DNA of 64,000 bases from contig JAFWCB010000008.1 of the NCBI GenBank assembly GCA_017537025.1, positions 186,001 through 250,000 of the forward strand. Reading direction: 5' to 3'. The position numbers were made by a program, and so were the translations under genes. How positions within the stretch are numbered: position 1 is the stretch's first letter; the number at the start of each line of letters is the position of its first letter. Below the pieces are notes generated by a model, which made no database searches, was not told where the DNA came from, and saw only the letters and a list, made by a program, of their open reading frames with translations. The stretch comes from Sediminibacterium sp. Its GTDB lineage: Bacteria; Bacteroidota; Bacteroidia; Chitinophagales; Chitinophagaceae. Positions 5,903 to 59,302 of this stretch are shown piece after piece.

Positions 5903-5939
5903 ATAGATTTATTCCAGAGATTATTTTAGAAATAATAGG

Positions 5940-6011
5940 TAGTCCCGACAGGAATCGAACCTGTATCAAAAGTTTAGGAAACTTCTATTCTATCCATTGA
6001 ACTACGGGACC
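5940..6011 (-). tRNA. tRNA-Arg(CCT)
   Basis: A minus-strand cloverleaf of 72 nt. The acceptor GGTCCCG pairs with CGGGACT, with G-U at the first pair. The D-arm contains TTCAATGGAT. The anticodon stem GAAGT/ACTTT encloses the 7-nt loop TTCCTAA, giving anticodon CCT. The T-arm CAGG/CCTG carries TTCGATT. The discriminator is A and no complete CCA is encoded, as is common in Bacteroidota. It should decode AGG. Confidence 0.93.
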
Positions 6012-58414: not shown

Positions 58415-58885
58415 TTATCGGGGTGCAACAACAACATTTCTATTAATACTTTCTTCTAATGAAATAAAAGTTTCGGTTCTTTCGATACCTTTTATTTTCT
58501 GTAGTTCATCGTGTAAAACAAAGCGCATTTCCTGAATGTCTTTACAAACGATTTCTATAAACATGGAGTAATTGCCGGTTGTATAATTTAGGCGTACAAT
58601 TTGTTGAATTTTTTTGAGTTCTTTAGCAACCGTATCATACATGGAGCTTTTTTCAAGATAAATACCTATAAATGCAATTATGTCGTAACCTAGCGCTTTG
58701 AGATCAACAGAAAGTTTTTTACCTTTCACTACCTTCTGTTCTTCTAGTTTTTTGATACGTACATGAATGGTACCGCCAGAAACAAAAAGTTTCTTGCCTA
58801 AATCGGCGTAAGATATCTCTGCATTTTCCATCATTTCCTGAATGATTTGGAAATCGAGTTTGTCGAGATTCAATTTTCCGGACAT
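58415..58885 (-). CDS. Lrp/AsnC-family transcriptional regulator
   Basis: The protein has 156 residues. The helix-turn-helix reads DFQIIQEMMENAEISYADLG and KKLFVSGGTIHVRIKKLEEQ, then the RAM domain starts at YDIIAFIGIYLEKSSMYDTV, with IVRLNYTTGNYSMFIEIVCK. It is a ligand-responsive dimer or octamer binder. The ATG at 58885 is used; a TTG at 58891 would add two residues. It is the first gene of an operon with Wzz and Wzy_C-like proteins. Inverted repeats lie upstream at 58902-58941. Confidence 0.93.
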   Translation of the reverse strand: MSGKLNLDKLDFQIIQEMMENAEISYADLGKKLFVSGGTIHVRIKKLEEQKVVKGKKLSVDLKALGYDIIAFIGIYLEKSSMYDTVAKELKKIQQIVRLNYTTGNYSMFIEIVCKDIQEMRFVLHDELQKIKGIERTETFISLEESINRNVVVAPR

Positions 58886-58901
58886 TTTCAATCTATTTTT
58901 T

Positions 58902-58941
58902 GATAATATTCAAATATAGTAATAATAAATTGAATAATATC
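58902..58941. promoter_or_regulatory. Inverted repeat upstream of the Lrp gene
   Basis: GATAATATTCAA (58902-58913) and TTGAATAATATC (58930-58941) are imperfect 12-bp inverted repeats with a 16-nt spacer. Outer ATTTTCAAT/ATTGAAAAT copies near 58884 and 58969 add a second layer. The run starts 16 nt before the Lrp ATG, so an autoregulatory Lrp operator is likely. Confidence 0.5.
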
Positions 58942-59032
58942 TATATTTTACAAAATTATATTGAAAATAGTTAAACTAATTCAGTTTTTACTGTATTTTT
59001 GATTTATCAAACAAACGATAGTTCTTATATAC

Positions 59033-59200
59033 TGTGGGGTGATGAAATTTTCGGCAGACATGCCCTCTTGTCTCGGGGGTGAAGATAAAAGGATAAACGT
59101 AGTATAGAGCCCCCGACGGTTCCGTCGGGGTCCAGGGTCGACCACTGAACTTTGTGCTATAGCTAACTTCTTCGTGGAGGTTCGATCCCTCCCCCTACAG
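59033..59200 (+). ncRNA. tRNA-like RNA with a very long variable region (anticodon GTC in the loop)
   Basis: A complete cloverleaf can be drawn with canonical spacing. Acceptor TGTGGGG pairs with CCCTACA (one G-U). After TG comes a 3-bp D-stem ATG/CAT around a 14-nt loop containing GG. After one base, the anticodon stem CCCTC/GGGGG encloses TTGTCTC (U33, anticodon GTC). The T-arm GGAGG-TTCGATC-CCTCC is perfect. Discriminator is G; CCA is not encoded. In place of the usual 5-20 nt variable loop, 96 nt (59080-59175) are inserted and can fold into a stacked arm: GAAG/CTTC, TAGTATAG/CTATAGCTA, CCCCGACGG/CCGTCGGGG. A terminator follows directly. G73, GTC and C38 agree with tRNA-Asp identity, but U37 and the first-base T are odd. 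Repeat insertion into a tRNA gene is an alternative. Confidence 0.6.
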
Positions 59201-59204
59201 CTTC

Positions 59205-59240
59205 AAAAAAAGCTCTGTATTATTAGTACAGAGCTTTTTT
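59205..59240. terminator. Bidirectional terminator after the tRNA-like RNA and LLM gene
   Basis: A perfect 9-bp stem AGCTCTGTA/TACAGAGCT with loop TTATTAG is preceded by AAAAAA and followed by TTTTTT. It lies 4 nt after the tRNA-like discriminator and can serve both strands. Confidence 0.9.
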
Positions 59241-59302
59241 ATTTTAGGGTTAGTATACAGCACTTTGATTCAGCAATGTGCCGATACCTAGATAGTATCA
59301 GA

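Follow-up and report, generated by a model that had tools for sequence, protein, structure and literature searches.

The window, a 64,000-nt stretch of a Sediminibacterium sp. contig, contained at 59032–59201 an RNA gene with the arms of a tRNA and a very long variable region. The features of this locus were as follows (positions in the window).

58415–58891, − strand: divergent gene for an Lrp/AsnC-family regulator, with a 140-bp spacer between it and the RNA.
59032–59201, + strand: whole RNA, from position −1 to C74, scoring 134.4 bits with model R1 (this copy was among the 19 training sequences of R1).
59033–59039, + strand: 5′ strand of the acceptor stem, U1 G2 U3 G4 G5 G6 G7, covarying with 59193–59199.
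59042–59061, + strand: D-arm, tRNA-Leu-like, with a 3-bp stem (59042–59044/59059–59061) and G18G19 in the loop at 59053–59054; comparative evidence.
59063–59079, + strand: anticodon arm, with stem 59063–59067/59075–59079 and loop UUGUCUC at 59068–59074 (GUC anticodon, C38); comparative evidence.
59080–59175, + strand: variable region of 96 nt.
59081–59084, + strand: 5′ strand of helix V1, partner 59170–59173, covarying.
59089–59091, + strand: 5′ strand of helix V2, partner 59167–59169, covarying.
59099–59109, + strand: 5′ strand of helix V3, partner 59150–59160, from the single-sequence fold only.
59111–59130, + strand: hairpin V4, varying in length and sequence among relatives; from the single-sequence fold and the alignment of loci.
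59133–59147, + strand: hairpin V5 with the GGGTCGACCAC motif (general form GGRUNGACCAC), read by eye from the loci.
59176–59192, + strand: T-arm, GGAGG-TTCGATC-CCTCC; comparative evidence.
59193–59201, + strand: 3′ strand of the acceptor stem (pairs 59193–59199), G73 (59200) and C74 (59201).
59206–59240, + strand: intrinsic terminator hairpin of the RNA gene.

The acceptor and T-stems were most plainly read as 7 + 5 bp. C(−1) at 59032 could pair with G73; this pair was C-G or U-G in 62 of the 69 distinct rows of the family alignment, making an 8 + 5 split possible in those rows. C74 was encoded in the genome, as it was for the 29 ordinary tRNAs found there by ARAGORN, and the other cloverleaf hallmarks (TTCGA T-loop, G18G19 and U8) were also present, U8 and TTCGA being among the filters applied to the training sequences of R1. 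The variable arm opened with V1 and V2, separated by a bulge, and continued through an AUAAA/CUAA internal loop into arms that varied. The original prediction had placed here four correctly spaced arms, a 96-nt variable region with stems of its own and a terminator just after the RNA. All of this held: relatives covaried in every arm and in V1 and V2, the first helices of the variable region, and the terminator hairpin lay at 59206–59240. Folded as a single sequence, the RNA was mildly better than its shuffles (z −1.83), which is weak evidence, as 11/200 shuffles were as good.

Standard finders passed over the locus. ARAGORN reported no tRNA there or in 20 related loci given to it, and Rfam at the gathering threshold had nothing at the locus or in 12 related loci, RF00005 included. 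A search of 58900–59300 at E <= 10 gave 16 Rfam matches, all below their own gathering scores and none to a tRNA-like family. The sole tRNA reported in the window by either program was a tRNA-Arg near 5938–6011. A literature search of titles and abstracts found no description of this tRNA-shaped RNA.

Of 100 genomes searched at the DNA level (the own genome and relatives), 59 had matches. Thirty loci were fetched and 29 of them aligned (L030 was left out through a filter mismatch); they shared a constant core followed by terminators that differed in sequence between genomes. Among distant relatives, from other families of the order, variable arms were mostly shorter and several genomes carried tandem copies. 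Tandem arrays of 3–5 copies were seen at L034, L114, L117, L164, L180 and L220, mostly without the GGRUNGACCAC motif where examined. At about 3000–3420 of L047 (G043:C107) an intact copy was followed by repeats of the RNA 3′ end and terminator, and a copy at L044 was without most of the variable arm.

Nineteen diverse members were compared over 28 named pairs, both the members and the structure being set by the analyst; 531/532 cells held standard pairs, 13 pairs had double-sided changes, and 0/500 shuffles reached any of these measures. In a larger alignment, fitted to model R1 and holding 71 members found by that model (69 distinct, window copy included), 98.6% of 1928 pair cells were standard, with 247 double-sided changes. 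Among its 69 distinct rows 17 pairs had changed on both sides, again with 0/500 shuffles reaching any measure, and slid controls were 50–60% paired. Position 4 of the acceptor stem ran through A-U, G.U, U-A, G-C and C-G, the D-stem through A-U, U-A and G-C, the anticodon stem through C-G, G-C and U-A, and the base of the variable arm through G-C, A-U and U-A. The tRNA-like fold is not a product of chance, and the proof is comparative. The original prediction had turned on homologues with covarying arms, and such homologues exist.

Family membership was called at R1 >= 85 bits; one genome with a 109-nt match of 68 bits (G245) was kept negative. Members of set A4 scored 94–138 bits, the tRNA-Leu genes of the own genome 53.1, 44.2 and 38.2 bits, and its tRNA-Ser genes 31–34 bits. 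Raw model tallies of 272/296 and 289/296 were rejected as family counts, as matches below about 65 bits were 78–89 nt long, the size of ordinary class II tRNAs. At the chosen threshold the RNA was found in 53/296 sampled genomes of the class, in searches whose stricter filters lost weak matches, and two genomes of the phylum sample from outside the class (G622 and G630) scored > 100 bits. A pattern scan gave at least 119 bacterial stretches from named genomes and 113 stretches from predicted viral contigs; R1 matched all 113 viral and all 119 listed bacterial stretches, some cut by contig ends. The 80 record titles among the matches listed were all Bacteroidota by name, mostly Chitinophagales, Saprospirales and Cytophagales, and the assignment of the sample genomes to Bacteroidota rests on such named records. 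The RNA family is large and unannotated and occurs in Bacteroidota bacteria and their phages. With 53 of the 296 sampled class genomes and 113 viral stretches, a common RNA family is added to a field thought complete.

Terminator-like hairpins followed within 60 nt of the 3′ end in 50/71 bacterial members of A4 (5 with shuffled flanks) and 62/98 of A3 (6 with shuffled flanks). They followed 11/78 viral members, against 1 in shuffled flanks, and with so few terminators behind them the viral RNAs may be processed out of longer transcripts. Among the matches listed, 73/119 bacterial loci had a divergent Lrp/AsnC homologue within 1 kb, at a median of about 150 nt (50/80 in the first bacterial set), and 46/119 had no such neighbour, 10 of these having < 600 nt of upstream sequence; Pfam was applied to the neighbour in the window and to one other. 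A SufB-like gene lay farther along in the same direction in 17/80 bacterial loci among the matches listed. Genes recurring near the bacterial copies were those of the Lrp/AsnC regulator, of the suf system and of an AMP-binding enzyme.

The conserved bases of the RNA were compared with known tRNA determinants. In the 71 model-found members U1-A72, G2-C71, G73, C74, U35, C36 and C38 were present in 71/71 and G34 in 70/71. The training sequences had been pre-filtered for GTC, U8, TTCGA and G73, so the constancy of these in model-found members was partly built in; C38, U1-A72 and G2-C71 were outside that filter. Distinct members picked via the anticodon arm alone had U1-A72 in 134/136 bacterial (among the matches listed) and 72/77 viral cases, G2-C71 in 136/136 (likewise among the matches listed) and 75/77, and G73 in 136/136 (also among the matches listed) and 76/77. 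The bacterial aspartate determinants given in PMC9976931 are G73, G10, G34, U35, C36 and C38, with G1-C72 and G2-C71 conserved. The RNA kept G34, U35, C36, C38 and G73 and did not keep G10 or G1-C72; position 10 was A in 44, U in 14 and G in 13 of the 71 members. The own genome carried genes for an ordinary tRNA-Asp(GTC), tRNA-Asn and tRNA-Leu; its tRNA-Asp had G1-C72, and its tRNA-Asn and tRNA-Gln had U1-A72. Judged by its sequence, the RNA unites putative tRNA-Asp-type determinants with the U1-A72 of the tRNA-Asn and tRNA-Gln of its own genome. Aspartate identity had been proposed at the outset from G73, GUC and C38, and these bases proved near-constant across the 71 members; U37 and U1-A72 had rightly been called unusual (U37 in 65/71, U1-A72 in all). 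U33 was found in 57/71 members and lost in 14, and position 37 was U in 65, C in 5 and G in 1, never A, which makes decoding improbable. The RNA is probably non-decoding.

The RNA resembled several known molecules in part. It shared GUC, C38, G73 and G2-C71 with tRNA-Asp(GUC), from which it differed by U1-A72 in place of G1-C72, a rare G10, a pyrimidine at position 37 in 70/71 members and a class II arm. With tRNA-Leu it shared the D-arm sequence, the 3-bp D-stem and the class II layout, and R1 cross-matched best to the tRNA-Leu genes of the own genome; unlike tRNA-Leu it had GUC, G73 instead of A73 and a variable arm of up to about 100 nt, and a tRNA-Leu function was rejected for want of A73 and a leucine anticodon. 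Alanine identity, with a G.U pair in the acceptor and the stem shifted by one, was also rejected: G.U occurred in 15/69 rows, the pair being mostly A-U, U-A, G-C or C-G. Like tmRNA it is tRNA-like with a large insert, but the insert sits in the variable arm and the determinants are of the Asp, not the Ala, type. Neither RF00023 nor an ARAGORN tmRNA matched at the locus, and a true tmRNA lay elsewhere in the genome. The bacterial Y RNA YrlA is a tRNA mimic of similar size and a partner of Ro60/TROVE. Unlike YrlA, the RNA had an intact acceptor with C74, and a Y RNA was rejected as the TROVE protein (PF05731) was absent from the own genome. Allo-tRNAs and tRNA-Sec are likewise unusual class II molecules with G73 (PMC7609411). 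Their acceptor/T-stem splits are 8/4 or 9/3 (or 8/5); that of the RNA was most plainly 7/5, with 8/5 possible in 62 of 69 rows, and the RNA had a 3-bp D-stem, a constant GUC and a far longer arm.

U1-A72 is a pair recognised by bacterial GatCAB, according to PMC4206432. Co-occurrence of the RNA, GatB and GlnRS (E <= 1e-60) was compared across the 296 genomes that make up the class sample, GatCAB presence being scored through GatB alone. GatB was present in 53/53 genomes with the RNA, 35 with GlnRS and 18 without. Among the 116 genomes with GlnRS, GatB was found in 35/35 with the RNA versus 16/81 without it (Fisher 1.3e-17, kinship ignored). Genomes with neither GlnRS nor the RNA had GatB in 159/162, which is the ordinary glutamine route. 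The 16 GatB matches in genomes with GlnRS and no RNA all passed the Pfam cut-off; 8 were at E 1e-4 to 1e-45 and 8 belonged to family f33 (1e-93 to 1e-99). A version of the comparison reading 35/35 versus 0/81 uses an E-value line drawn after seeing the data. Family f33 formed one block of exceptions, with GlnRS and a GatB match and the RNA undetected (G110, G152, G187, G216, G242, G266, G287 and G309). The RNA and GatB were jointly missing within families f1 (G171, G321), f23 (G209) and f59 (G137, G233, G323).

In 43 hand-picked genomes AsnRS was above cut-off in 43/43 and GlnRS in 35/43, AsnRS being present in 26/26 with the RNA. AsnRS and GlnRS were both present in 25/26 of the latter, leaving GatCAB without an ordinary client there. 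PMC4206432 counts Bacteroidetes among the clades that have GatCAB together with AsnRS and GlnRS and that lack an asparagine synthetase. Genes recurrent beside gatB were AlaRS-like and thioredoxin-like, the latter recurring also in a genome without GlnRS; no asparagine-releasing enzyme was found among them.

AspRS type and asparagine supply were also examined. The anticodon-binding-loop residue of AspRS was F, L or K in 20 genomes (11 of the 53 with the RNA and 9 without); the Asp/Asn-type enzyme 4rmf has His and 1efw Leu. A His at this place we take to mark a non-discriminating enzyme, here on one aligned sequence, 4rmf. This suggests that the host AspRS would read GUC only, in which case GatCAB would need a GUC RNA with U1-A72. 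AsnA was found in 2/26 genomes with the RNA (G390 and G267) and in 3/17 others. Among the matches listed, AsnB-family proteins above the TIGR01536 cut-off occurred in 22/26 genomes with the RNA, including that of the window, and not in G356, G374, G310 or G347. With the asparagine synthase B equivalog (cut-off 499), three AsnB-family proteins from genomes with the RNA failed (246–287 bits) and three from genomes lacking both RNA and GatB passed (> 900). AsnA or an E. coli-like AsnB was present in 2/26 genomes with the RNA versus 8/10 lacking RNA and GatB (p 5.9e-5, among the matches listed), E. coli-like AsnB being called by length and match pattern and three of these AsnB being tested directly. 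A 571-aa AsnB-family protein in G188, which has the RNA, could be of either type. Neither enzyme was among the matches listed for G117, G169, G140, G138 and G118, which have GatB and no RNA (G107 was ambiguous), or for G171 and G321, which have no GatB. The asparagine-synthetase pattern is suggestive, supportive rather than decisive. The AsnB-family protein of the own genome (L354:6728–8509, G000:C19) lay among glycosyltransferase genes and failed the asparagine synthase B model.

We propose as the simplest reading, at about an even chance of being right, that the RNA is a dedicated carrier on which AspRS would load aspartate and GatCAB would amidate it to asparagine, a form of tRNA-dependent asparagine synthesis. 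The RNA would be transcribed from its own gene, stopped at the terminator seen behind it and given CCA. AspRS would recognise the conserved G34U35C36, C38, G73 and G2-C71 and attach aspartate. GatCAB, which co-occurs with the RNA, would then read U1-A72 and amidate the aspartate to asparagine, a reaction not expected on the ordinary G1-C72 tRNA-Asp. The odd anticodon loop and long variable arm would keep the Asn-RNA off the ribosome, where it would otherwise place asparagine at aspartate codons. Asparagine would be released or passed on, giving a route independent of AsnA and AsnB, and the divergent Lrp/AsnC-type regulator may adjust the RNA to amino-acid supply. Known tRNA-dependent asparagine synthesis employs AspRS and GatCAB on tRNA-Asn, as in Deinococcus, Thermus and Bdellovibrio (PMC4206432). 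The proposed route resembles that described there in having GatCAB beside AsnRS and GlnRS, a U1-A72 RNA (presumably Asp-loaded) and scarce asparagine synthetases; it would differ by using a separate GUC RNA, one that has a long variable arm and is less constrained in its decoding features, and would need no non-discriminating AspRS. Against a carrier of this kind speak the absence of G10 in 58/71 members, the replacement of G1-C72 and the overlap with the serine determinants, which likewise include G73, G2-C71 and a variable arm of large size. If true, asparagine would be synthesised on an RNA that takes no part in codon reading, a clean case of a tRNA in metabolism missed by the finders tried. 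It would explain why GatCAB is retained in many Bacteroidota that have both AsnRS and GlnRS, a concrete solution to the question raised in PMC4206432 of the job of GatCAB beside these two enzymes.

The identity bases and the GatB evidence would also fit an RNA that donates Asp or Asn outside the ribosome: once charged, and perhaps amidated, it would hand the amino acid to a lipid, a peptide or an acceptor in the cell wall instead of freeing asparagine. tRNAs with roles outside translation are known, and the AsnB-family proteins in 22/26 genomes with the RNA (among the matches listed) lessen the need for a pure asparagine supply; however, none of the genes near the RNA stands out as a transferase, the recurrent bacterial neighbours being Lrp/AsnC, suf and AMP-binding genes, and the two genes recurrent next to gatB are AlaRS-like and thioredoxin-like. 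We hold such a donor to be unlikely. Less probable again is a regulatory sensor that would report Asp/Asn charging, or titrate AspRS or GatCAB, and so control the divergent Lrp gene or others. The close divergent Lrp/AsnC gene in 73/119 loci among the matches listed (median about 150 nt) and the recurrent GGRUNGACCAC motif of the variable arm speak for it. The 46/119 loci among the matches listed without this neighbour (10 with < 600 nt upstream) speak against it, and the class-wide dependence on GatCAB would require an amidation-based signal. A regulatory RNA on a tRNA scaffold had been one option of the original prediction: the tRNA scaffold makes it the closest of those options, but the evidence favours an AspRS/GatCAB amino-acid carrier over a purely regulatory RNA. 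We think it still more doubtful that a non-discriminating AspRS and GatCAB act on normal tRNA-Asn, the RNA accompanying the lineage for other reasons. This indirect pathway has been demonstrated for Bdellovibrio, the Bacteroidetes are named with the fitting enzyme set and no asparagine synthetase (PMC4206432), and the own tRNA-Asn has U1-A72; against it, AspRS has F, L or K in place of the loop His both in 11 genomes with the RNA and in 9 without it, and GatB and the RNA were jointly missing in three families.

A functional decoding tRNA, here a specialised one reading GAC/GAU under some condition, had also been considered at the outset and is now disfavoured, with a probability we rate as small. 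The complete tRNA fold, C74 and the anticodon GUC agree with it, and many viral contigs also carry weaker, tRNA-sized R1 matches; yet U33 is missing in 14/71, A37 occurs in none, an ordinary tRNA-Asp(GTC) exists, and amidation by GatCAB would place asparagine at aspartate codons. A serine acceptor charged by SerRS is very improbable. Most members have the G73, G2-C71, R4-Y69 and large variable region given among bacterial serine determinants in PMC9976931, but C72 and C11-G24 are also listed there, and the RNA had A72 in 71/71 and U in 57 and C in 14 at position 11, mostly as U11-A24; SerRS would also leave the constant GUC, C38 and the link to GatB unexplained. A decayed tRNA with a palindromic insertion can practically be dismissed: a few truncated copies do occur in relatives (L044, and 3′ pieces in L047), but every arm and the first helices of the insert covary and the identity bases are constant. 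The invasion of a tRNA by a palindromic repeat, once offered as an option, is rejected on the same helices.

Returning to the proposed asparagine carrier, its phage copies had features of their own. In 80 viral loci, with one member per group tested, the RNA lay near a terminase gene (33), a portal gene (20) or other genes. The G...GACCA motif was present in 58/61 distinct viral members. Palindromes of at least 6 nt followed the motif in 28/36 distinct viral stretches versus 6.4 expected (maximum 13 in 500 base shuffles), and palindromes of at least 8 nt in 17/36 versus 1.6 expected; their letters varied from phage to phage, and the relatedness of phages makes these counts non-independent. Bacterial members had no palindrome enrichment (7/43 regions versus 7.6 expected). 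The changing phage palindromes, as in kissing-loop dimers, suggest dimerisation. Somewhat short of an even chance, we would give the family the standing of a new RNA class, a non-decoding aminoacyl cofactor of asparagine biosynthesis, loaded by an ordinary discriminating AspRS, that phages would have captured, often beside packaging genes, and equipped with individual palindromic loops dimerising with their own kind.

Among GenBank phages, one query gave a full-length match, LR756504.1:133312–133456 (a 636-kb unannotated record, 73% identical), and two short weak ones; a second query gave no match there. Weaker R1 matches of about 105–160 nt and about 24–55 bits at L260, L265, L266, L268 and L338 may include diverged members besides ordinary phage tRNAs. 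Palindromes of 6–10 nt after GACCA were seen in many phage copies, e.g. L289:2552–2724, L278:4947–5118 and L268:7300–7452, and the copies at L289, L278 and L248 had an additional hairpin inserted in the D-loop.
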